Below are positions 31,122-43,095 of a stretch of DNA of 47,853 bases, one piece after another (position 1 is the stretch's first letter; each line of letters begins with the position of its first letter). The translations under genes and the position numbers were made by a program. The DNA is from Phycisphaerae bacterium (GTDB taxonomy: Bacteria > Planctomycetota > Phycisphaerae > Sedimentisphaerales > Anaerohalosphaeraceae), in the NCBI GenBank assembly GCA_014859965.1, contig JACZKQ010000192.1:1-47853 (forward strand). Direction: 5' to 3'. The notes beneath the pieces are model-generated. The model had not been told where the DNA came from and did not search any database. It worked only from the letters and a program-made list of their open reading frames with translations.

Positions 31122-31310
31122 ATGTTGCCCGTAAAGAAAACCAGTAAGGCGAAAACTCGCTCGCGTCGAAGCCATCAACGGCTGACCGCGACGAACTACT
31201 CTCTCTGCCGCAAGTGCAGCAATCCAAAGCTGCCTCATGCCGCCTGTGACAAGTGCGGGTATGTCAACCCGAAAATCACACTTGACCTCGGCAAGGAGGA
31301 AGCAAGCTAA
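31122..31310 (+). CDS. rpmF: 50S ribosomal protein bL32
   Basis: A 62-aa ribosomal protein: MLPVKKTSKAKTRSRRSH start, then a zinc-ribbon with C29/C32 (LCRKC) and C42/C45 (CDKC) and the usual tail GYVNPKITLDL. TGGAG lies about 8 nt before the ATG. It heads the fatty-acid operon, as in many bacteria (rpmF-plsX-fab), linking ribosome and membrane synthesis. The four-cysteine form is the zinc-containing type. plsX follows after 2 bp. Confidence 0.97.
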   Translation: MLPVKKTSKAKTRSRRSHQRLTATNYSLCRKCSNPKLPHAACDKCGYVNPKITLDLGKEEAS

Positions 31311-31312
31311 GG

Positions 31313-32326
31313 ATGCGTATCGCAATAGATGCCATGGGCGGCGACCATGCACCTGACGAAATTATCAAAGGTGCGCTGGAAGCAAGGGAATTGCTCGATG
31401 CCGAGGATCAATTAATTCTCATTGGTGTGCAGGCGAGCATTGAAAAGCATTTGAAACTGGCGGGCTGCCCCGCGGGCGCCATTCAGATCGTCGATGCACC
31501 TGAAACCATCGCGATGGATGAGTCTCCGGTGGATGCTCTGCGCAAAAAGCGGAACAGTTCTATCGCCGTGATGGCGCGGATGGCGTCCAACAAGGAAGCC
31601 GATGCGGTGATCTCGGCCGGTAATACCGGGGCGTGCGTCGCCGCATGCCAGATTCGCATGCGCAATCTTGAGGGCGTCAACCGGCCCGGTATCGCCGTCG
31701 TGCTTCCGACGCTCGGCGGTCCGGTCACCATGTGCGACGTGGGAGCCAATATCGCCTGCAAGCCGGCCAATCTTTATCAGTACGCCATTATGTCCATGGT
31801 GTACTCCCGGCAGATGCTCGGAATCGCCAGCCCGCGGGTCGGCCTCATGAGCATCGGTGCAGAGGATGCCAAGGGCAACGAACTGGTTAAGAAAACCCGC
31901 GATCTCCTCAAGACCGACCCGAACGTCAACTTCATCGGAAATCTGGAAGGACGCGATATTTTCGACGGGGCCTGTGATGTGGCGATTTGCGAAGGCTTCG
32001 TCGGCAACGTGATCCTCAAGCTTACCGAAGGCATGGTGCACATGCTGTTCAGTGCGATCAAGCATGAGCTCCTCGCCGAAAGCATGGAGCTGGCTCTGAA
32101 GTTCAAGCCGGTCATGACGGAAATCTACAAGAAATATGATTACCATGAATACGGCGGCGCCCCCCTTCTGGGCGTGGACGGAACCGCCTTTATCTGCCAT
32201 GGCACCAGCAAGAGCCGCACGATCAAGAATGCGATTGCGGCCTCCAAGAAATACCACATGAAGAAAATCAACCATCGCATCACCGATTATCTCAAAAATT
32301 CAGCCCTGAGGACCAATGGTGACTGA
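31313..32326 (+). CDS. plsX: Phosphate acyltransferase PlsX
   Basis: A 337-aa enzyme that makes acyl-phosphate from acyl-ACP and phosphate for phospholipid synthesis; a peripheral membrane protein in known cases. Family marks are the start MRIAIDAMGGDHAPDEIIKG, ALRKKRNSSIAVM, AVISAGNTGACVAA, RPGIAVVLPTLGGP, DVGANIACKPANLYQYAIM and GLMSIGAEDAKGNELVK, with EGFVGNVILKLTEG near the end. Length is normal. It starts 2 bp after rpmF and its last 11 bp overlap fabH. Confidence 0.97.
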   Translation: MRIAIDAMGGDHAPDEIIKGALEARELLDAEDQLILIGVQASIEKHLKLAGCPAGAIQIVDAPETIAMDESPVDALRKKRNSSIAVMARMASNKEADAVISAGNTGACVAACQIRMRNLEGVNRPGIAVVLPTLGGPVTMCDVGANIACKPANLYQYAIMSMVYSRQMLGIASPRVGLMSIGAEDAKGNELVKKTRDLLKTDPNVNFIGNLEGRDIFDGACDVAICEGFVGNVILKLTEGMVHMLFSAIKHELLAESMELALKFKPVMTEIYKKYDYHEYGGAPLLGVDGTAFICHGTSKSRTIKNAIAASKKYHMKKINHRITDYLKNSALRTNGD

Positions 32327-33332
32327 TATAACCGTTCCATATCCGGGCGCCTACCGTGCAGTGGTCGCCGGTACCGGTTCGTTTGTTCCGGCCCAAACTC
32401 TCACCAACGAAGACTTCACCCGGATGGTCGACACGTCGGATGAATGGATTACCACGCGCACCGGCATCAAGGTGCGTCATATTGCCGGCGAAAGCGAAAC
32501 GACGGCCACGCTGGCTGCCGAAGCCGCACGCATGGCGCTGGCTGACGCGGACATGAAGGCCGCCGATATCGAACTTATTATTGTCGCCACGATTACACCG
32601 GAGATGGTTTTTCCTTCGACGGCCTGCTTTGTTCAGCACATGCTCGGGGCGCACAATGCCTGGGCTTTTGATCTCTGCGCGGCATGCAGCGGTTTTGTCT
32701 ACGGCGTGGCGACCGCACGCGAGTTCGTCGTCTCGGGCCGCTACAAGAACGTGCTTGTGATCGGCGCCGAAACGCTCAGCAAAATCACGGACTACGAAGA
32801 CCGCAACAGTTGCGTCCTGTTTGGAGACGGCGCCGGGGCCGTGGTTATTCAAGGCTCCACACAAGGCCCGCTGGGCATCGTATACAGCAGCTCATCGTCG
32901 GACGGCGGCGGCTGGACAAGCCTCAACTGCCAGGCCTACGGCTCGCGCAATCCGGTCAGCAGGCCGTTGAACGATCCAAAAAAAATCTTCATGACCATCA
33001 ATGGCAGGGAAGTCTATCAGCTTGCTGTTCGCCGCATCGTCGAAATGGTCGAAGAGTGCCTGGACCGATGCCATCTCACCATTGACGATATAAGTATGTT
33101 TATTCCTCACCAGATGAACGCCAGAATTATCGAATCCGTGGCCAAGCGGATCAATCTGCGTGCAGAGCGTGTCTTTATCAACATCGACAAGTACGGCAAT
33201 ACCTCGGCCGCGTCTATACCGATTGCGCTTGACGAATGTTGCAGACAGGGTAAAATCAAATCCGGCGACATCGTCCTGATCGTGGCGTTCGGCGCCGGTT
33301 TGACTTGGGGTGCGACCGTCATTCAGTTTTAA
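32316..33332 (+). CDS. fabH: 3-oxoacyl-ACP synthase III
   Basis: A 338-aa initiating condensing enzyme: acetyl-CoA (or another primer) plus malonyl-ACP to acetoacetyl-ACP. Catalytic residues are C124 (DLCAACSGF), H265 (FIPHQMNARI) and N295 (DKYGNTSAAS). The motif DEWITTRTGIKVRHIA is typical. It overlaps plsX by 11 bp. ATG 32316 adds about ten residues to the usual start; GTG 32319 is also possible. Primer choice (straight or branched) cannot be read with confidence. Confidence 0.97.
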   Translation: MVTDITVPYPGAYRAVVAGTGSFVPAQTLTNEDFTRMVDTSDEWITTRTGIKVRHIAGESETTATLAAEAARMALADADMKAADIELIIVATITPEMVFPSTACFVQHMLGAHNAWAFDLCAACSGFVYGVATAREFVVSGRYKNVLVIGAETLSKITDYEDRNSCVLFGDGAGAVVIQGSTQGPLGIVYSSSSSDGGGWTSLNCQAYGSRNPVSRPLNDPKKIFMTINGREVYQLAVRRIVEMVEECLDRCHLTIDDISMFIPHQMNARIIESVAKRINLRAERVFINIDKYGNTSAASIPIALDECCRQGKIKSGDIVLIVAFGAGLTWGATVIQF

Positions 33333-33370
33333 CGGCCGAGCACGGGCCGATGCTAAAATGGAAGGACAGG

Positions 33371-34318
33371 ATGAAAACGGCTTTTCTATTTCCGGGACAA
33401 GGAGCGCAGACGGTCGGCATGGGCGCCGATATCGCCGAGGCCTTCCCCCGCTGCGCCGATGTTTTCAACCAGGCCAACGAAATCCTGGGCTACGACCTGA
33501 AGCGGCTCTGCTTCGAAGGCCCGGAGGCGCGGCTTCACTCAACCACGGTGTCGCAGCCGGCCATATTCGTTACTTCGGCGGCGATTTTGTCGCTTGTAAG
33601 GTCGGACGGCGCGGCTGTCACGCCGGATGTCACGGCGGGCCTGAGTCTCGGCGAGTACACAGCCCTCTACGCGGCCGGCGCGATGACGTTTGAACAAACG
33701 CTCCTTCTGGTTCAGAAACGGGGTGAGGCGATGCAGGCCGCCGCGGATGCGACGTCCGGCGGCATGGTCAGCATTCTCGGGCTGGATGCCGATAAGGTTC
33801 AGGCCCTCTGCGATGAGGCGGCTCAGGGCCAACTGCTCAAGGGCGCCAATTTCAATTGCCCCGGCCAAATCGTCGTGAGCGGGCATTCGGATGCCTGCGA
33901 CCGTGCAGTCGAACTGGCGCAACAGTACGGGGCCATGAAGGCCGTCAAGCTCAAGGTCGCCGGCGCATTTCATACCGAGATGATGTCGCCCGCCGCGGAC
34001 GCCCTTGGGGAGGCGCTGACCCACGGAGAAATCCATGTTCCCGCAAGTCCCAGAACGCTTGCGAATGTCGACGCCGCGTACTATGCCGACGCCGGGCATA
34101 TCCGGCGGGGGCTGGTGCGGCAGCTTGTCGAACCGATCCTCTGGCAGGCCTGCATGGAGAAACTGCTGGACGAAGGAATCGAAACTTTTTATGAAATCGG
34201 GCCGGGGCGGGTCTTGACAGGTTTGATGAAACGGATTAACAGGAAGGCAAGGATTGTGAACGTCAGTGATCTCGCCGGCATTCGGCAACTGCAATCACAA
34301 CAGGTCGGCGGCAAGTAG
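33371..34318 (+). CDS. fabD: Malonyl-CoA:ACP transacylase
   Basis: A 315-aa enzyme that loads malonyl groups onto ACP. The start MKTAFLFPGQGAQTVGMG carries the family GQGxQ motif; nucleophile S92 is in AGLSLGEYTAL, and H201 in VAGAFHTEMMSPA completes the dyad; GANFNCPGQIVVSG is also typical. ATG 33371 is preceded by GGAAGG; the frame extension to 33305 overlaps fabH and is rejected. 38 bp after fabH, 32 bp before fabG. Confidence 0.97.
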   Translation: MKTAFLFPGQGAQTVGMGADIAEAFPRCADVFNQANEILGYDLKRLCFEGPEARLHSTTVSQPAIFVTSAAILSLVRSDGAAVTPDVTAGLSLGEYTALYAAGAMTFEQTLLLVQKRGEAMQAAADATSGGMVSILGLDADKVQALCDEAAQGQLLKGANFNCPGQIVVSGHSDACDRAVELAQQYGAMKAVKLKVAGAFHTEMMSPAADALGEALTHGEIHVPASPRTLANVDAAYYADAGHIRRGLVRQLVEPILWQACMEKLLDEGIETFYEIGPGRVLTGLMKRINRKARIVNVSDLAGIRQLQSQQVGGK

Positions 34319-34350
34319 ACCGGCGCCTTAAAAAAACATTGGAGGCACCC

Positions 34351-35088
34351 ATGACGGAAAAAAGATTAGCTGTTGTTACAGGAGCCGCACGCGGCATCGG
34401 GCGCGCGACGGTATTGGAGCTTCTCAGGCAAGGCCGCAAGGTGGCGGCGCTGGATCTTAACACCGAACAGCTTGCCGAATTGCAGAACGTCGTTAAGGAG
34501 GCCGGCTTTGACGTCATCACGCGGTGCGTCGATATTACCAATACGCCGCAACTGACCGAAGCGCTGGAGGGACTGATCGCCGAACATGGCGGCATCGGCG
34601 TCCTGGTCAACAACGCAGGCATTACGCGCGATCGTCTCATGATGCAGATGGATGACGACGATTACGACAAGGTCATGGCGGTCAATCTTCGCGCCGCCTT
34701 TATCGCCACGCGCATCGCCATGCGATCGATGGTCCGCAACAAATTCGGCCGCATCGTCAGTCTCAGTTCCGTCGCCGGCGTCATGGGTCAGGCCGGCTCG
34801 GCCAACTATGCCGCCAGCAAAGCCGGACTGATCGGCATGACAAAATCCATTGCGCGAGAAGTCGGAAAGAAAAATGTCACCGCCAATTGCATCGCGCCCG
34901 GCTTCATCATGACCGACATGACGGCCGTATTGCCCGACGCCGTCAAGGACGCCGCCATGAACTTTATCCCAGTAAAGAAGTTCGGAACACCCGAAGACGT
35001 CGCAAGGGCCATCGCCTTCCTGGCCTCGGACGATACCGGCTATGTCACCGGACAGGTTCTTTGCGTGGATGGCGGCATGGCCATGTAA
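34351..35088 (+). CDS. fabG: 3-oxoacyl-ACP reductase
   Basis: A 245-aa short-chain dehydrogenase reducing 3-oxoacyl-ACP with NADPH. The Rossmann motif TGAARGIG is at 10-17, NNAG at 87-90, and the catalytic triad S140, Y153, K157 lies in SLSSVAGVMGQAGSANYAASK. The C-terminal VTGQVLCVDGGMAM is diagnostic of FabG. GGAGG lies 5 nt before ATG 34351. Downstream, a separate promoter precedes acpP, so fabG may be the last gene on some transcripts. Confidence 0.96.
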   Translation: MTEKRLAVVTGAARGIGRATVLELLRQGRKVAALDLNTEQLAELQNVVKEAGFDVITRCVDITNTPQLTEALEGLIAEHGGIGVLVNNAGITRDRLMMQMDDDDYDKVMAVNLRAAFIATRIAMRSMVRNKFGRIVSLSSVAGVMGQAGSANYAASKAGLIGMTKSIAREVGKKNVTANCIAPGFIMTDMTAVLPDAVKDAAMNFIPVKKFGTPEDVARAIAFLASDDTGYVTGQVLCVDGGMAM

Positions 35089-35125
35089 AAAGCGGCATCG
35101 TCCATGTAAAAAAAAGAAAAATTAT

Positions 35126-35172
35126 TTGAAACGTCGAAAGCAAATGGCTATAGTACCGCGGACTATCCGCGG
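35126..35172 (+). promoter_or_regulatory. Internal promoter for acpP-fabF with hairpin at the predicted transcript start
   Basis: TTGAAA (35126-35131), 17-nt spacer, TATAGT (35149-35154): both hexamers are one base off consensus. CCGCGGA (35156-35162) and TCCGCGG (35166-35172) form a perfect 7-bp stem with a 3-nt loop at the expected 5' end (about 35161). ACP is normally made in large amounts, which fits an extra promoter. Confidence 0.6.
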
Positions 35173-35251
35173 AGCGGCAAAAATCGAATAAACTTTTTAG
35201 ACGATACACATTAGCTGTTAGGCAATGCAAAAATGAAAAGGAGATCGCCAA

Positions 35252-35524
35252 GTGAGTTCTGATATCAATATGCAGGAAATCGAAGCTAAGGTCATCGAGA
35301 TCGTTAGCGAGCAGATGGGTGTGGACAAAGCCGAAATCACCCGTGACACGTCATTCATCAATGATCTTAACGCCGATTCGCTTGACACCGTCGAGTTGGT
35401 GATGGAGTTCGAGGATGAATTCGACATGAGCATACCCGACGAAGAAGCTGAAAAGATACAGACCGTCGGCGCCGCTATCGATTACATCGTGGAAATCGTT
35501 AAGTCCCAAAGCCAGGACCAGTAG
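35252..35524 (+). CDS. acpP: Acyl carrier protein
   Basis: A 90-aa acidic carrier protein. S43 in the motif [19 protein letters not shown] is the phosphopantetheine attachment site. The GTG at 35252 is chosen because AAAGGAG lies 8 nt upstream; ATG 35270 would remove six residues. The 8-bp gap to fabF and the upstream promoter at 35126-35154 suggest an acpP-fabF unit in addition to the long operon transcript. Confidence 0.97.
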
Positions 35525-35532
35525 AAGAGACT

Positions 35533-36780
35533 ATGAAGCATACAAGACGCGTTGTCATCACCGGCCTGGGTTGTGTAACCGCGCTGGGAGAATCCGCCCA
35601 CGAGATGTTCCAGGCGGTCTGCCAGGCCAAGAGCGGTATCAGCAACATCGAATCGTTCGACGTCTCGGATTTCCCGGTCAAGTTCGGGGGCGAGGTCAAG
35701 AACTTTGCCATAAAGGACCATGTCGCCGCGAGGGAAGGCAAGCGACTTGATCGTTTCGCGCAATTCGCACTTGCCAGCGCCATTCAGTCGGTGGAAGACA
35801 GCAATCTGGACTTCAGCCAGGAGAACCGAAGCCGCATGGGTGTGCTCATCGGCACCGGCATCGGGGGCCTTATAGAAATCGAAGAGCAGCACACGCGGCT
35901 GCTCAGAAAAGGCCCGCGCAAGGTTTCGGCCTTTTGCGTGCCAAAGCTTATGGGCAACGCCGCCAGCGGCGTCGTGTCGATTCACTACGGGCTCAAAGGG
36001 CCCAACATGTGCGTCGTTACGGCGTGCGCCTCGGCCAGTCACGCCATCGGCGAGGCTTTCTATCATATCCTGACAGATCGCAGCGACGTCATGATCACAG
36101 GCGGCTCGGAGGCGGCCCTGACGCCGGTGGGTCTGGCGTCTTTTTGCTCACTCAAGTCCCTGAGCACACGAAACGATGCGCCGCAGATCGCCTCCAGACC
36201 GTTCGACAGGGATCGTGACGGATTTGTTCTGTCGGAAGGCGCCGGCATCCTGGTGCTCGAGGAGTACGAGCACGCCAGAAGACGCAACGCACGTATCTAT
36301 GCCGAAGTGCTCGGATACGGCGCCACCGGCGACGGCTATCACATTACCGCGCCCCTGTCCGACGGACGCGGGGCCGCCGACGCCATGCGGCTCGCATTGG
36401 CCGATGCCGATATTCGACCCGAGCAGGTCGATTATATCAACGCGCATGGTACGAGCACACAACTTAATGACGAAGCGGAAAGCACCGCAATGAAGAGCGT
36501 GTTCGGCGAACACGTCTACAAGCTGTCGGTCAGTTCCACCAAGAGTTCGCTGGGTCATCTCCTCGGCGCCAGCGGGGCCGTCGAGCTGATTGTCTGCGCC
36601 AAAGCGATTTCTGATTCAGTGGTTCCGCCCACGGCCAATCTGGAGAACGTCTGCAAAAAGTGCGACCCGAAAATCGATTATGTCCCGAAAACCGCTCGCG
36701 AGATGCAGGTGAGTATTGCGATGAGCAACTCCCTCGGGTTTGGCGGCCACAATTGCTCGCTGGTGATAGGAAAAGTCTGA
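35533..36780 (+). CDS. fabF: 3-oxoacyl-ACP synthase II
   Basis: A 415-aa elongating condensing enzyme (KAS II). Catalytic residues are C165 (VTACASASHAIG), H305 (NAHGTSTQLND), K337 and H342 (KSSLGHLLGASGAVE). RRVVITGLGCVTALG at the N-terminus and SNSLGFGGHNCSLV at the C-terminus match the family. It ends the fatty-acid operon; fabZ and fabI are not in the window. No clear terminator follows before the antiporter gene. Confidence 0.97.
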   Translation: MKHTRRVVITGLGCVTALGESAHEMFQAVCQAKSGISNIESFDVSDFPVKFGGEVKNFAIKDHVAAREGKRLDRFAQFALASAIQSVEDSNLDFSQENRSRMGVLIGTGIGGLIEIEEQHTRLLRKGPRKVSAFCVPKLMGNAASGVVSIHYGLKGPNMCVVTACASASHAIGEAFYHILTDRSDVMITGGSEAALTPVGLASFCSLKSLSTRNDAPQIASRPFDRDRDGFVLSEGAGILVLEEYEHARRRNARIYAEVLGYGATGDGYHITAPLSDGRGAADAMRLALADADIRPEQVDYINAHGTSTQLNDEAESTAMKSVFGEHVYKLSVSSTKSSLGHLLGASGAVELIVCAKAISDSVVPPTANLENVCKKCDPKIDYVPKTAREMQVSIAMSNSLGFGGHNCSLVIGKV

Positions 36781-36919: not shown

Positions 36920-37918
36920 ATGGCTTTTCAAATGAACATGACCTGGGCTCTGATCGGTTTACCGGCAGGTTTGGTTATCCTTCTCAAGGGTGCTGATCTG
37001 CTCGTGGACGGCGCTGTTGCCCTCGCCGAACGTTTGGGCGTGCGCCCCCTGGTAATCGGCTTGACGGTCGTGGCCATGGGCACCTCGGCCCCGGAGGTCG
37101 CCGCAAGCGTCACGGCGACACTGCGCGGCTTCGGCGACATCGCCGTGGGGAACGTCTACGGCTCCAATATCGCCAATCTCGCCCTCGTGGGGGGACTTTG
37201 CGCATTGATTCGTCCGCTGGGCGTCCAACGCAGCATGCAGTTGCGCGAAATTCCCGTGATGGTGCTGGTGGCGCTGGCGCTCTATCCTGTTTTAGCGAAT
37301 GCCTTTCTCGGGCGCGTCGAAGCCGTGATCCTGCTTCTGGTATTTGTGGGCCTCATTTCGGTTACGATATTGAGCGCACGAGGTGAATCCAAGGCAGCGC
37401 CCTTGATCGATGTCCGGGTCGAGGAACACCTTCAGCATGCCGCAGCGCACAGGAAGAAGTCCGTGCCCATGGTGATCGCCCTGGTTGGCCTGGGGCTTCT
37501 GGGGCTGGCGGCAGGGGCCCACCTGACCGTCGAATCCGCAGTATTCCTCGGGAAGCGCATCGGTCTCAGCGATGCCGTCATAGGTCTGACCATTATTGCC
37601 GTGGGTACTTCCCTGCCCGAATTGATGACCTCCGCCGTCGCCGCGTTCAAGGGTCACGATGATCTGTCGATCGGAAATCTGGTGGGCTCCAACGTGTTCA
37701 ATACGCTCCTGGTGATCGGTGTTGCAGGCGCCGTCCGCCCTTTTTCCATCTCCGGCCGGCTTGTTACGACGGACTACTGGATCATGGTGGGCGTAAGCGT
37801 GCTGTTTATGCTCCTTGTGCTGTTCCATAAACGCATCAGCAGAACGGGCGGCGCATTGCTGCTTACGGTCTATATCACCTACATGGCATACCTCTTCATC
37901 TACACGAAATCTGCGTAG
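36920..37918 (+). CDS. Calcium/sodium antiporter, CaCA family (YrbG-like)
   Basis: A 332-aa membrane protein with ten predicted helices in two inverted repeats. Each half carries the ion-binding alpha-repeat: VVAMGTSAPEVAASVTA with VYGSNIANLALVGG, and IIAVGTSLPELMTSAVAA with LVGSNVFNTLLVIG. It exchanges Na+ for Ca2+ or a related cation across the inner membrane. GGGGGAAG is 5 nt before the ATG at 36920, so the extension to 36899 is rejected. An inverted repeat (CGACAA 36887-36892, TTGTCG 36899-36904) lies just upstream, possibly an operator or the 5' hairpin of its own transcript. Confidence 0.94.
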   Translation: MAFQMNMTWALIGLPAGLVILLKGADLLVDGAVALAERLGVRPLVIGLTVVAMGTSAPEVAASVTATLRGFGDIAVGNVYGSNIANLALVGGLCALIRPLGVQRSMQLREIPVMVLVALALYPVLANAFLGRVEAVILLLVFVGLISVTILSARGESKAAPLIDVRVEEHLQHAAAHRKKSVPMVIALVGLGLLGLAAGAHLTVESAVFLGKRIGLSDAVIGLTIIAVGTSLPELMTSAVAAFKGHDDLSIGNLVGSNVFNTLLVIGVAGAVRPFSISGRLVTTDYWIMVGVSVLFMLLVLFHKRISRTGGALLLTVYITYMAYLFIYTKSA

Positions 37919-37958
37919 TGCAGGCCAGGTAAGCTCCGGCGGATGTAGCCCACCGCAA

Positions 37959-39560
37959 TTACTCAAACATCAGCGCCTCGGCGAACACACCCTGGAAGTC
38001 GGGCTCATGGGCGATCTCCACATATTCGATGCGCTCCGCCAGGTCCGCTGCGAGTCTTCGGCATTCGCTGCTCAACAGGATCATACGTGCCCCGCTGCCC
38101 GCGGCGTTGCCGACAAAATGCACCCGCTCAACGCCCACCTGCGGGAGCAGCCCGATGCGGAGCGCACTCTCTCGTCGAATGAAGTTGCCGAATGCGCCCG
38201 CCAGAAGCACCTGTTGGATATCTACATCGGCCACATGCATTTTCTTCTGCAGGAGTTGAATGCCCGCGCGGATGGCAGCCTTGGCCAGTTGTGTTTCCCG
38301 CACGTCCTTCTGAGTGAGAACAACCGACTCGTTCGCATCATTGCCGCTGCCTGCCAGGACAAATGCGGGTTGGCCGCCCCGCTCAATCAGCCGGTCCAGA
38401 ATCGCCGGTGCAGCTTTTCCCTGCAGCGCCTCTTTGCCGATGAATCGCCCCGTCACATCGAGCAGGCCCGCTTCCAGCAACACGGCGATCGCGTCAATCA
38501 GTCCGCTGCCGCAAATCGTGCGGGCGCGGCCGCCGCCGATCACGTCCACGTCGATGTCCCGGCCATCGGCGCAGACAAACACTGCTTCAATTGCGCCATC
38601 CACCGCCCTGCTGCCGTGGCCGATGCGCGCGCCCTCCAGCGCCGGACCCGCGGCGCAACTGGCCGCATACATCTGCGTTTTGGTGCCAAGGACAATCTCA
38701 CCATTTGTCCCGATGTCCACGACCAGCGTCATCGCGTCGATCTCGTCCATGCCGACAGCCACCGCGACCGCGGTAATATCCGATCCCACGAAGCCGGCGA
38801 TACTCTCGACGACATGGATGTTGCCGCACGGATTAATGGCGATTCCCATTTTGTCGGCCCGGCAGTCCTCCGCCTTCGTGGAGTACGCGCGATACGGCGA
38901 TTGCCCCAGTTGGCTGAGTGGAAACTTGAGGAGGATGTGGGTCATCGTAGTGTTGCCCGCGACCGTGACTTCATAGATGTGCCGGGCCGCCACCTGCGAC
39001 GCCGCCTCCAGTTGGGCGATCAGATCGTTCAGACATCCGACGACTGCCCTGTGGAGCGTCTCAAGACCCTTCGGGCGTTCGGCATATGCGATCCGGCTGA
39101 CCACGTCGTCGCCATAAGCAATCTGGGGATTCGCGGACGCGGCGGTAGCCTTGCATTCACCGGTCGCCATGTCCATCAGTTTGGCAACGATGGTCGTCGT
39201 TCCAATATCGACGGCTACGCCGAAGATATGCTTGTTGTCCCTCAGGCCCGGCACATGCTCATGAATACCCGGCGAAAGGGTGATTTGCCTGTCGATGCCG
39301 TGATGCAGAATCTGCTGTTCAAAAAAGCGTGAGCGGCCGGGGACCTCAACCGTCAGATCCGATTGAACGCGGTGCTCACAGGCCAGCACCGTTCGCCGCT
39401 CCGGCAACAGCACCACTTCGCACTTGCGGCAGGTCCCAACGCCCCCGCAGATCGTATTGAGAATGATCCCCGCCTGGGCGGCCGCATCCAACAGCGTGGC
39501 GCCGTCGTGAACGGACACGCGCTGTCCCTCCGGCCTGAAGGTCACGCTGTAGTGCTCCAT
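37959..39560 (-). CDS. Ferredoxin-ASKHA protein, RACo-like corrinoid activation ATPase (DUF4445)
   Basis: A 533-aa protein. The N-terminal 2Fe-2S ferredoxin domain has C38, C44, C47 and C61 (TICGGVGTCRKC and LACEHRV). A linker leads to an ASKHA ATP-binding domain with AVDIGTTTIVAKLMD, AGNTTMTHI, LVVDIGTNGEIVLG and the late motif VLLAGAFGNFIRRESA. This matches RACo, which reductively activates the Co(II) form of corrinoid proteins using ATP. No methyltransferase or corrinoid protein lies next to it, so its partner is elsewhere; the family also includes members with no known partner. ATG 39560 is chosen; TTG 39572 is in frame but too close to GAGGGG. Confidence 0.88.
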   Translation of the reverse strand: MEHYSVTFRPEGQRVSVHDGATLLDAAAQAGIILNTICGGVGTCRKCEVVLLPERRTVLACEHRVQSDLTVEVPGRSRFFEQQILHHGIDRQITLSPGIHEHVPGLRDNKHIFGVAVDIGTTTIVAKLMDMATGECKATAASANPQIAYGDDVVSRIAYAERPKGLETLHRAVVGCLNDLIAQLEAASQVAARHIYEVTVAGNTTMTHILLKFPLSQLGQSPYRAYSTKAEDCRADKMGIAINPCGNIHVVESIAGFVGSDITAVAVAVGMDEIDAMTLVVDIGTNGEIVLGTKTQMYAASCAAGPALEGARIGHGSRAVDGAIEAVFVCADGRDIDVDVIGGGRARTICGSGLIDAIAVLLEAGLLDVTGRFIGKEALQGKAAPAILDRLIERGGQPAFVLAGSGNDANESVVLTQKDVRETQLAKAAIRAGIQLLQKKMHVADVDIQQVLLAGAFGNFIRRESALRIGLLPQVGVERVHFVGNAAGSGARMILLSSECRRLAADLAERIEYVEIAHEPDFQGVFAEALMFE

Positions 39561-39656
39561 ACCCGCGGACAACCCCTCGCACGGCGGCAGTACGGTCGAA
39601 TCGCGGCAACCTCCGCGCGCACACCCACCAATAAGGATTCTTCACAAAAAAAAGCC

Positions 39657-39698
39657 ATTCAGCCGACAGGAGCTTTCCACGCTCCTGATCGGCTGAAT
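39657..39698 (-). terminator. Strong rho-independent terminator of the 26-aa gene
   Basis: ATTCAGCCGA (39657-39666) pairs with TCGGCTGAAT (39689-39698), continued by CAGGAGC (39667-39673) with GCTCCTG (39681-39687); one bulged base, 7-nt loop. On the minus strand GGC and then eight Ts (39653-39646) follow. It lies 29 nt beyond the stop of the small gene. Confidence 0.9.
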
Positions 39699-39727
39699 AC
39701 AGATTATAAGAAATGCCTTAACGGCAT

Positions 39728-39808
39728 TTAACTGATTTTATGGCGTACTTTCCAGCGGGCCCGTCTTTTCTTACTGCCCACTTTACGTCTGCGTCGCGAT
39801 TTGGCCAT
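39728..39808 (-). CDS. 26-residue Arg/Lys-rich protein, possible ribosomal protein
   Basis: ATG GCC start at 39808, stop TAA at 39728. The product begins MAKSRRRRKVGSKKRRARW; 14 of its 26 residues are Arg or Lys. CCGGAGA lies 7 nt before the ATG, an excellent ribosome binding site, and a 17-bp terminator hairpin with eight Ts follows, so this is a complete monocistronic gene and not a chance frame. Size and charge resemble the tiny ribosomal proteins bTHX, bS22 (related to mitochondrial mS38/AURKAIP1) and bL37, but I cannot assign it to one of them. Divergent from the 95-aa cysteine protein. A longer frame to 40273 on this strand is a chance extension over that neighbour. Confidence 0.8.
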   Translation of the reverse strand: MAKSRRRRKVGSKKRRARWKVRHKIS

Positions 39809-39931
39809 CAAAGTCTCCGGTAAACAATTTTTCCATAGTCCACAAAATACGTTCCGATTGCACATGGTATATGGTAATATTAAACAAATCAAGAACCGGC
39901 CGAATTTTTTTTTAGAATTTGGGGTAATCGC

Positions 39932-40219
39932 ATGATCCAATGCAAAGATTGTGAGTTTTACGAGGAAGATTCGCAGGGAAGGCGAGCTTTCAAGTGCGAC
40001 CCATTTCAGAATATTAAGGAACCTGAATGCCTCACGAAGTGGCAGCTTCTGCGACTGGATATGCTCGTCGCGACTTATCGCGGGATGGTCGGCTTTCAGG
40101 AGAAGCTTGCTCCAATGCAGGACAAGATATTGCGATACGTTAAGCGAGAGCTGGAAGATCTGGACGACTCGGAAAGCTGGAAACTGGACGATGACCAGGA
40201 ACCTGAGACCTCCTTTTAA
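39932..40219 (+). CDS. Small cysteine-containing protein of unknown function
   Basis: A 95-aa protein. C4, C7, C22 and C33 (QCKDCEFYEED, FKCDPFQN, EPECLTKW) are spaced like a small metal-binding site. The middle is helical (QLLRLDMLVATYRGMVGFQEK), and the tail is acidic (LDDSESWKLDDDQEPETSF). GGGG lies 8 nt before the ATG. No signal peptide or membrane helix. It precedes the sigma factor by 111 bp on the same strand; whether both are co-transcribed is unclear because of the palindromes between them. No known family recognised. Confidence 0.78.
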   Translation: MIQCKDCEFYEEDSQGRRAFKCDPFQNIKEPECLTKWQLLRLDMLVATYRGMVGFQEKLAPMQDKILRYVKRELEDLDDSESWKLDDDQEPETSF

Positions 40220-40273
40220 TCCTGGCGGACACCTTTGTTGTCCGATATCTTCACAGCCTGAAACTTTGTTCAA

Positions 40274-40306
40274 AAATGCAGCATTTCAGCAAATAATGCA
40301 ATATTT
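40274..40306. promoter_or_regulatory. Two palindromes upstream of the sigma-factor gene
   Basis: AAATGC-A-GCATTT (40274-40286) is a perfect inverted repeat; AAATAATGCAATATTT (40291-40306) is symmetrical at 7 of 8 pairs around TGCA. Their centres are about 18-19 bp apart, roughly two helix turns, 25-57 bp before the ATG. A dimeric regulator could bind both on one face. Confidence 0.45.
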
Positions 40307-40330
40307 CCGCGAAAAACCCCGTCTAAATCT

Positions 40331-40888
40331 ATGTCGACAACCGGTAACATGGACGACTGCGAAAAGTTAAACCAGATTATTACGGGCTGTCAGAACGGCG
40401 ATAACCAGGCGTTCGCACAGCTCATTGATGCATATTCGACGCGATGTTATGGGTACTTTTACAGGCTGACGGGTAACAACGGAGTCAGCGACGATCTTTT
40501 GAGCAGGCTGTTTATGCGCCTTTTCGAGAAGATCAGCTCATTCAAAGGCGGCTCTTTTGAAAAATGGCTTTTCACGATTGCATCCAACATTTTCAACGAC
40601 TATCTGAGGCATGAATACCGCCAAAGACGGCTGTTGGAGAGCCATGCCGAGCAACTTGCGGCCGAAACGCCGCCTCGCCAATCGGACAACGACATCGCCG
40701 ACCTGCTGCAGCGGCAGATTGGAAAGTTGGATGAGGACACCGCTGAACTGATTATGCTGCGGTTCTATGGCGAATTGAGCTTCAAGGAACTCAGCGACCT
40801 TCGCGGCGAACCGATCGGTACGACGCTTTCCAAGGTCCATCGAGGCCTGGGCAAGCTTAGAGAATTAATGGGAGGCAACGATGCCTGA
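40331..40888 (+). CDS. RNA polymerase sigma factor, ECF-like
   Basis: A 185-aa two-domain sigma factor. Region 2 runs about 15-95 (GDNQAFAQLIDAYSTRCYGYFYRLTGN, then SRLFMRLFEKISSFKGGSFEKWLFTIASNIFNDYLR, matching region 2.1-2.4). Region 4 runs about 120-180 (AELIMLRFYGELSFKELSDLRGEPIGTTLSKVHRGLGKLRE). Region 3 is absent, as in ECF factors. Its target promoters cannot be read here. No clear ribosome binding site precedes ATG 40331; ATG 40349 is an alternative. It overlaps the next gene by 8 bp, the usual sigma/anti-sigma coupling. Confidence 0.9.
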   Translation: MSTTGNMDDCEKLNQIITGCQNGDNQAFAQLIDAYSTRCYGYFYRLTGNNGVSDDLLSRLFMRLFEKISSFKGGSFEKWLFTIASNIFNDYLRHEYRQRRLLESHAEQLAAETPPRQSDNDIADLLQRQIGKLDEDTAELIMLRFYGELSFKELSDLRGEPIGTTLSKVHRGLGKLRELMGGNDA

Positions 40889-41387
40889 CAAAAAAGAAAA
40901 TCTTGAGACTGTGCTGGGCGATTTGCTCGGCGCCCATGAGGCGCACCAAGCCGCAGAAGATATCCGAAGCGGCGACTGCCTGTTGCGCCAATACCCCGCC
41001 CCGAAGCCTGGCGCCGCCCTGCTGGCTGACATCAATATCCAGATTGCCAGAGCGCTGCTTGCCAGACGCCGGCGTACCATTCACTGGGTCGGACGGGCCA
41101 TAGCGGCCGCGGCCGCAGTTATTGTAGTGGGCAGCGTCCTGCTTTTCTTCTCCGGCGACGCTCCCGTGCACGTCGCAGGACCCATTCCAGGACCCGGCGC
41201 GCCGCCCGCGCCCGACTGGTGGGATGACAAAGCCGTAGAGAAACTTACGGCGGAAGTCGACGACGTATACCAGACCTTGATGTCCATGTCTGATACTACT
41301 TATACTCAAGACAAGACATGGGATTTTGAAACCGAACTGAAAGACCTGGAAATGGTCGCCATGAACGACGATTTTTGGAAGGGATAA
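40881..41387 (+). CDS. Membrane protein, putative anti-sigma factor
   Basis: A 168-aa protein with a cytoplasmic helical N-terminus (1-60), one membrane helix (about 70-91, GRAIAAAAAVIVVGSVLLFF) and an extracytoplasmic part rich in Pro and Trp ending in an acidic tail. Position and topology are those of an anti-sigma factor: its start overlaps the sigma stop by 8 bp. The usual zinc anti-sigma motif HxxxCxxC is missing, so assignment rests on context. Signal sensing would act through the outer domain. Four bp separate it from the coiled-coil gene. Confidence 0.68.
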   Translation: MPDKKENLETVLGDLLGAHEAHQAAEDIRSGDCLLRQYPAPKPGAALLADINIQIARALLARRRRTIHWVGRAIAAAAAVIVVGSVLLFFSGDAPVHVAGPIPGPGAPPAPDWWDDKAVEKLTAEVDDVYQTLMSMSDTTYTQDKTWDFETELKDLEMVAMNDDFWKG

Positions 41388-41391
41388 CCTG

Positions 41392-42213
41392 ATGTCGTTT
41401 TGCTTTAATCGCTTTTTCTTTCTGCTTGCCTTTGCGATGGCGGTAGTGCTCGTGGGGACGAGCAACGCCGATCCGGGCGACGCCTACAAAGACATCTGGA
41501 CCGAAGATCTGCCCGACCAGACGCAGATCAGCAAAGAGAGGCTCGACCTGATAATCCGATACGTCGCAGAAGGTAAACAGCCCCGTCAGCAGCAATTGCG
41601 CAAGCTCTATGAAGAGGACCGGAGCAAGTTCTGGAGCGAGGTACGGACCTTCTTTCGTGAAAATCCGCTTGAAAGTCCAAGTCCGCAGGAAGGCCAGGGG
41701 CGCACATCAAAATGGAGGGAGGATCTGCTAAAGCAGCATGAGGAGTTCATCGGTTGGCTCAGGGAAGCCTATCCGGAAAAAGAAAAAGAGCTTTCGCATT
41801 TGCGCGAAAAGGACCTGGACGAGTACTTCAGGCGATTCGGAGCCCTTCACAGGAAGTATGCAACGGTTGCGGGCACACAGAAGAAGAACCCCGAATTGGC
41901 GGGTGTTCTCAAGGAAGATCTCGATTTGCTCGACCAGCACGATGCATTGCTCCTGGCAATCCGCCAGGCGGACAACCAAAGCAAGCCGAAGCTGATCAAG
42001 GATTTGCATGAGATTGTCGGCAAGCGCTTCGACCTCATTGTCCGCAAAAAGCAGCTTCAGTACGACGAATTACGGCGCCGCCTCGAAAGGCTTCGCCGCG
42101 ACCTGGAAAAGAAAGAACAGGAGCTCGGCAAGCTGATCGAAAGCAAGGAAGAGGTGACCAGGCATCGGGTAGAGGAACTTATGAATCCCACGCCCAAGAT
42201 CGACTGGCAATAG
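41392..42213 (+). CDS. Exported coiled-coil protein
   Basis: A 273-aa protein with a signal peptide (about 1-26, FFFLLAFAMAVVLVGTSNA). The mature part is charged and helical: LPDQTQISKERLDLIIRYV, KFWSEVRTFFRENP, and a long coiled coil near the end (about 215-260, RRRLERLRRDLEKKEQE). The helical, Arg/Lys/Glu-rich periplasmic form recalls Spy/CpxP-type chaperones, but the LTxxQ motifs of that family are not seen. Third gene of the sigma/anti-sigma unit. It could be the sensed partner or a product of the response; unknown. Converges on the rhomboid gene with a 42-bp gap. Confidence 0.7.
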   Translation: MSFCFNRFFFLLAFAMAVVLVGTSNADPGDAYKDIWTEDLPDQTQISKERLDLIIRYVAEGKQPRQQQLRKLYEEDRSKFWSEVRTFFRENPLESPSPQEGQGRTSKWREDLLKQHEEFIGWLREAYPEKEKELSHLREKDLDEYFRRFGALHRKYATVAGTQKKNPELAGVLKEDLDLLDQHDALLLAIRQADNQSKPKLIKDLHEIVGKRFDLIVRKKQLQYDELRRRLERLRRDLEKKEQELGKLIESKEEVTRHRVEELMNPTPKIDWQ

Positions 42214-42255
42214 CTATGCAGGCGAATTACAACGTGTGGGCTGTGTACGGCCAGG

Positions 42256-43095
42256 TTATTGCTGCTCGCGTTGTGTGGCCTCTTTCAAGACCTTCTTCTC
42301 CTGTCGCGTCAGACTTCTAATGCCTGATGCGTGAACTTTCGCAAGGATCCGGTCGACTTCCGCCTGAAACTGCCGTTGGTTCTCCATTTTCTTCGCCCAG
42401 TTGCCTTTTCGCGCAGTCAGCCGTGCCCCGTGGACCCAGGGACGCCAGAGCACGTACAGGGCGCCCGCCGCCATACCGGCAAGGTGGGCGGCCTCTCCTC
42501 CCCGATTGGACCCGCCGAACAGATCCACGAGGCTCCAGACCGCAAGGATGATGGCCAGGACATAGAGCTGCAGGGGAAATATGCCGAACACGTAAACGCG
42601 CATTCTGGGAAAAAGTATGGCTGCCGCCGCCAGAATCCCGAGAACCGCTCCCGATGCGCCGATCAGGAAGCCCGGCGGAAGAAAACCAACCCATACCAGA
42701 AGCGTGTACAGAAAACCGCCGGCGGCCCCGCACGCCAGGTAGAACTTCAGAAATCGCCGGCTGCCCCATGTCCCTTCCAGCACGGGCCCAAAGAAAAACA
42801 GACCCAACATGTTGCCGAAAATGTGACCGAAGCCGCTCGTAGAGTGAAGAAACTGATAACTGATAAGCCGCCAGACCTGAAGCGACTTGCCAAGGCCGTC
42901 GGGGTACACAGCGAACGCTGTCTCCAAAGCGTTGGGGCGGTTTCTGCCGCCAAAAATGAGTGCGATGACGAAAATGACCACATTAGAGATCAGAAGCCAT
43001 TTCACGACGGGTGTAATGGAAGGCATTGCCAGGCGCATCCCCGGTCCGCCGCCGCCCAAATCCTCGCGTGTATAGTCCCTGTCGTAAATTCCCAT
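42256..43095 (-). CDS. Rhomboid family intramembrane serine protease
   Basis: A 279-aa membrane protein with six helices. The catalytic dyad is S148 in GASGAVLG and H204 in EAAHLAGMAAG; H91 and N95 (FGHIFGNMLGLFFFG) match the oxyanion-side residues, and WRLISYQFLHS is also typical. The soluble C-terminal tail (about 220-279, RQFQAEVDRILAKVHASG, ending in basic helix) is common in planctomycete rhomboids and may serve regulation. GGCGG precedes the ATG. It cleaves membrane-embedded helices; the substrate is unknown. Divergent from bioF. Confidence 0.93.
   Translation of the reverse strand: MGIYDRDYTREDLGGGGPGMRLAMPSITPVVKWLLISNVVIFVIALIFGGRNRPNALETAFAVYPDGLGKSLQVWRLISYQFLHSTSGFGHIFGNMLGLFFFGPVLEGTWGSRRFLKFYLACGAAGGFLYTLLVWVGFLPPGFLIGASGAVLGILAAAAILFPRMRVYVFGIFPLQLYVLAIILAVWSLVDLFGGSNRGGEAAHLAGMAAGALYVLWRPWVHGARLTARKGNWAKKMENQRQFQAEVDRILAKVHASGIRSLTRQEKKVLKEATQREQQ

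Follow-up and report, generated by a model that had tools for sequence, protein, structure and literature searches.

Sequence comparisons indicate that a 26-codon ORF in the window (the whole 47,853-nucleotide stretch of Phycisphaerae bacterium DNA that was analysed) is a real gene, translated and very strongly constrained by purifying selection. Its product belongs to a previously unnamed family of Planctomycetota, which we refer to here as the GRRKIGS family. By analogy with bTHX, bL37, bS22, and eL41, the protein is probably a tiny, lineage-specific, rRNA-binding ribosomal protein of its own family. Viral homologues of the GRRKIGS family are newly reported here, and both these phage copies and the divergent forms found across the phylum go beyond an earlier note on this DNA, which had described a complete gene for an Arg/Lys-rich protein with an excellent ribosome binding site and its own terminator.

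Table 1. Positions of the small gene, its putative expression signals, and the gene downstream of it in the window
Feature	Position	Strand	Basis or remark
Small gene, 26 codons plus TAA stop, product MAKSRRRRKVGSKKRRARWKVRHKIS	39728..39808	minus	translation
Shine-Dalgarno GGAG, ATG 6 nt further on	39815..39818	minus	read from sequence
Intrinsic terminator, one-bulge stem of 17-18 bp, 7-nt loop, then T8	39646..39699	minus	fold; T8 from sequence
Weak promoter-like site TTGATT-17-TACCAT, 8/12 matches	39864..39892	minus	script scan of upstream regions
RACo-like ferredoxin gene	37959-39572	minus	downstream of small gene

The 26-residue product is 54% Lys plus Arg with a pI of ~12, and its gene is missing from gene catalogues. 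The terminator hairpin begins 29 nt past the stop codon and runs into the T8 at 39646-39653; over 39649-39699 of the minus strand it folds at -31.5 kcal/mol (z -7.3), a value that no shuffled sequence equals. The 17-bp terminator with eight Ts of the earlier note is thereby borne out, with a single bulge in the stem and with the trivial correction that the T8 lies outside the start quoted there (39657). This hairpin is absent from the output of a simple consensus terminator scan, and an Rfam search of 37500-42500 returned no match. The promoter-like site falls below the threshold of the other promoter scan and is suggestive only. A perfect 7-bp palindromic hairpin (AAATGCC-TTAAC-GGCATTT) at 39711-39729 also overlaps the stop codon of the small gene; it was scored as a plus-strand terminator-like site, and no plus-strand gene needs one.

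The earlier note had made its claim depend on conservation of the 26-codon frame in relatives, and the frame is clearly conserved: the protein is encoded in 53 of the 59 related genomes (E 1e-10 to 2e-5), including 32 of the 35 that are of good quality, normally as one copy per genome. By rough pairwise counts, dN/dS is ~0.019 among the relatives that were detected with no peptide pattern. In 80 pattern-found loci it is ~0.027 when only codons not covered by the search pattern are counted; these loci belong to Sedimentisphaerales, Phycisphaerae, and unclassified Planctomycetota or are in some cases labelled just uncultured bacterium. Single-base codon differences are overwhelmingly synonymous, and the information content of the first, second, and third codon positions across the 80 loci is 1.61, 1.93, and 0.86 bits, respectively. 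Along the aligned loci, information content rises sharply to a peak at the Shine-Dalgarno motif, which is present in 79 of 81 of them in agreement with the ribosome binding site noted earlier, and is full at the ATG, while the sequence flanking the ORF is not conserved. The reading of this ORF as a real Arg/Lys-rich gene thus stands on its translation, its conservation, and its dN/dS of ~0.02.

The GRRKIGS family occurs in many families of the window's class. Variation within the class sits in the second half of the protein (MAKPRRRRKVGSKKRKARRDRRKR in family f13 and MPKPRRRRKIGSKKRHAKWKARHHIQ in family f11), and the members from family f17 have GTG starts. Other classes of the phylum encode a longer, divergent form, MGTKKTGKGRRKIGRKKRRMRAKIRHRK. 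A profile built from the divergent form alone found the window gene as its sole match in the 5.3-Mb genome (E 0.0024), and profile-profile comparison of the two forms scored 42.7, compared with 10.9 +/- 2.5 for permuted columns. None of 100 permutations reached the real score, which supports a common ancestry of the window-type and divergent forms. With a combined profile, 69 of 294 phylum genomes matched with one copy each, the two or three weakest of which may be chance matches. These broad-profile searches covered Planctomycetota, and a single wider scan of genome contigs used the Phycisphaerae-type pattern. Among the genomes that lack the gene are complete ones from the same order (G006 and G046). 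In G006, which is a single contig, the flanking MIQC and RACo-like genes are retained and the syntenic site between them is empty; in a draft genome (G034) the gene is reduced to its 3' end. Its absence from complete genomes and the empty G006 site imply that the protein is dispensable in some lineages. Judged from this distribution, the small protein is ancient in the phylum, yet neither universal nor indispensable. The earlier description of it as uncharacterised also holds: Pfam, NCBIfam, and PHROGs contain no match to it, no chain among the PDB sequences matches it (nor did a sequence search find a planctomycete ribosome structure there), and the core peptides of the family are not printed in the literature searched.

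Scans of IMG/VR identified at least 228 uncultured viral contigs with a confirmed homologue, of the form M[APS][WH]PxKNRPRKGRRKIGSxKRKAR... In order of detection, the viral forms were MAKRTGKGRRKIGSKKRKARNKNRNRLKAR, then MAKKTGHGRRKIGSKKRKKMWRNRNK and M[AS]WPAKNRPRKGRRKIGS[KR]KRKARN...; the 228 confirmed stretches are of this last type, and the best 80 of the 228 were read. Compared with the two planctomycete forms, the phage form gave profile scores of 40 and 37, as opposed to 10.5 and 10.8 for permuted columns (0 of 60 permutations in each case). Shine-Dalgarno-like sites precede 49 of 51 distinct viral genes, and dN/dS of the viral core is ~0.013, a biased value since the core belonged to the search pattern. 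Virus genomes therefore carry a host-type homologue under purifying selection. Several of the carriers are T4-like genomes in which the small gene lies near genes of nucleotide metabolism, and one carrier encodes a T4-type RNase H. Genes for nrdA/nrdB/nrdJ-like reductases and for thymidylate synthase occur in the neighbourhood of the viral copies, as do glutaredoxin-like and RuvC-like genes; RuvC and ribonucleotide reductase were named by PHROGs and the others partly by sequence recognition. The start of the MAKRTGKGRRKIGSKKRKARNKNRNRLKAR-type gene and its ribosome binding site (AAGGAGG) both fall inside a RuvC-like gene, at the 3' end of the latter. A tblastn search of phages and plasmids gave no match, a negative that carries no information given the active low-complexity filter and queries that are nearly all Lys/Arg, and it was replaced by a profile search of whole phage records. 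By this search, 20 cultured phage records, T4, KVP40, S-PM2, P-SSM4, HTVC008M, phiM12, Cr30, and 121Q among them, all lack the small protein, a 10-residue match in Cr30 (E 0.045) being noise, whereas all six of the uncultured viral contigs that were rescanned in the same way were positive. As an economical guess, the hosts of the viral contigs are planctomycetes. In an AlphaFold model of modest confidence (mean pLDDT 77, pTM 0.34), the tail of the phage form is extended as far as the Gly-Ser, ending at residue 18, and a single helix follows at 19-31.

What does this protein do? It is small, basic, single-copy, and under strong purifying selection, and the known proteins of similar size, charge, and conservation (bL37, eL41, bTHX, and bS22) are ribosomal, from which we infer a ribosomal role. 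Its independent transcription unit and its carriage by phages are compatible with such a role, as are its size, charge, copy number, and purifying selection, and in this respect the earlier note's suggestion of a tiny ribosomal protein is partly supported, though by inference. The Arg-rich N-terminal tail would be extended, with the Gly-Ser turn capping a short basic helix, and tail and helix may be threaded into an rRNA pocket, where the protein would help the assembly or stability of one ribosomal subunit; a phage copy would supply the phage's own version to the host ribosome. Speaking against a ribosomal protein are its absence from G006 and G046, the restriction of matches to 69 of 294 phylum genomes, its location outside ribosomal-protein operons, and its lack of homology to any of the ribosomal proteins compared. 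Its basic composition by itself would also fit other nucleic-acid binders.

Among the alternatives, a small nucleic-acid-binding protein acting off the ribosome is the first to consider; it might, for example, condense DNA or serve as an RNA chaperone, and phages would use it in nucleic-acid metabolism. The very basic composition is in accord with such a protein, as is the proximity of several phage copies to genes for ribonucleotide reductase, thymidylate synthase, or RuvC-like proteins. However, the near-invariant core GRRK[IV]GSxKR and the dN/dS of ~0.02 suggest a specific pocket over general charge, and the 26-residue protein has no dimer core, which is usual in nucleoid proteins. On balance, we consider this function unlikely. 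Somewhat less likely still is a conditional translation factor, i.e. a modulator of hibernation, stress, or initiation that is substoichiometric on the ribosome. Patchy absence from complete genomes, a separate promoter-like site and terminator, and phage carriage are all compatible with such a factor, but no regulatory context was seen, and extreme conservation together with near-universal presence in the order suggests a constitutive role.

Comparably doubtful is the proposal that the protein is a functional replacement of bS22/mS38/eL41 in the pocket of 16S helices h2, h27, h44, and h45, given that its size class and charge are similar to theirs but in profile comparison it scores no higher against bS22 or eL41 than column-permuted controls do. 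The COX24_C/bS22 model (PF08213) exceeds its cut-off in 4 of 294 phylum genomes, which belong to four families without GRRKIGS matches; this distribution is in line with a replacement, and with so few cases it carries little weight. In hhalign comparisons with known ribosomal sequences, several of them entered by hand, 52 and 72 of 100 permutations equalled or exceeded the score against bS22, 24 and 79 the score against eL41, and 20 and 48 the score against bL37. Homology to bS22, eL41, bL37, bTHX, and bL34 was rejected on such profile scores, as was homology to bL32, bL35, bL36, bL33, the bS21 tail, and the S14-type tail, which also scored at the level of column-permuted controls. A visual likeness to the N-terminus of bL32 failed the same kind of comparison (9 of 60 permutations equalled or exceeded it), and bL32 is a separate gene in 16 of 16 genomes checked, the window copy lying at 31122-31310. 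That rpmF-like gene opens a plus-strand run at 31122-36780, ~3-8.5 kb from the small gene, which continues into fatty-acid synthesis with plsX-, fabH-, fabD-, fabG-, acpP-, and fabF-like genes (by sequence recognition).

The genomic neighbourhood of the small gene changes with taxonomic order. Within Sedimentisphaerales, a RACo-type ferredoxin/ASKHA gene follows it on the same strand in ~70 loci, and a Cys-containing small-protein gene and an ECF sigma gene diverge from it, whereas in other families it adjoins polyphosphate kinase, pyrF, murD, and other genes. In the window, the divergent gene (39932-40219, plus strand) encodes a 95-aa MIQCKDCEF... protein of no Pfam family and is conserved beside the small gene in ~54 loci; next to it come the ECF sigma gene (40331-40888) and an ORF of 168 aa (40881-41387), also conserved there. 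Since the small gene has its own terminator before the RACo-like gene and its neighbours change, it forms its own unit and is not a leader peptide. The idea of a regulatory leader peptide or a chance ORF of the RACo-like ferredoxin gene, which draws on the same-strand arrangement in Sedimentisphaerales, was therefore dropped as extremely improbable, being already contradicted by the strong intervening terminator and the different genes beside it in other families, and opposed as well by the homologues in phages and the unconserved sequence beyond the ORF.

Returning to the ribosomal protein that we prefer, a broader proposal can be made tentatively and with less than even confidence: an unrecognised ribosomal protein of Planctomycetota may also be encoded by many uncultured, partly T4-like phages, in which case the phage copy could remodel host ribosomes, or complete them, in the course of infection, and its carriage would mark a phage as having a host that uses the protein, perhaps a planctomycete. 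If it is ribosomal, the protein adds to the ribosome inventory of a whole phylum a component that is absent from databases, and its sequence is ready for fitting to unassigned density in planctomycete ribosome maps. Under the same proviso, the phage copies predict viral exchange of a small ribosomal component, and they also provide a candidate host marker for many uncultured phages. More generally, genes of 24-31 codons with a dN/dS near 0.02 can escape gene callers and family libraries alike.

Among known small ribosomal proteins, bTHX (Thx, PF17070) offers a close parallel: it too has 26-odd residues, is very basic, is encoded by a single gene outside ribosomal operons, and is patchy across lineages. 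Its sequence (MGKGDKRTRRGK...) differs from that of the GRRKIGS family, and identity with it was rejected because the small protein belongs to no Pfam family, the best PF17070 match in genome G000 lies elsewhere (E 0.5), and true bTHX genes coexist with the GRRKIGS family in six genomes. In the window's own family, bTHX is itself patchy, with a match above the curated threshold in 6 of the 59 relatives. The bS22/mS38/AURKAIP1-COX24 proteins (PF08213) are likewise Lys/Arg-rich and ~30 residues long, and bS22 of Borrelia was missed by annotation until the ribosome structure was solved (PMC10618245); identity was rejected here as well, with no PF08213 match (KRRxKMxKHK motif) at the small gene in the 59 relatives and hhalign scores at control level. 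The mycobacterial bL37, a basic, lineage-specific protein found by cryo-EM, and the basic, mostly helical eL41/eS32 resemble the GRRKIGS family in composition only, and the invariant Gly before the helix distinguishes the family from eL41. In PDB entries, these comparison proteins measure 24 aa (bL37), 25 aa (eL41), and 33 aa (bS22), with bTHX in a similar class. It is established that exchangeable ribosomal proteins can be virus-borne and subject to purifying selection, and phage bS21 and bL12 are incorporated into E. coli ribosomes (PMC6375957). The ribosomal proteins described there, 14 in all, are known ones; by contrast, no known ribosomal protein is homologous to the GRRKIGS family, whose phage copies were found here in uncultured viral contigs only. 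The two are alike in that bS21, bL12, and the other phage-encoded ribosomal proteins (PMC6375957) are also small, of host type, carried by phages, and under purifying selection.
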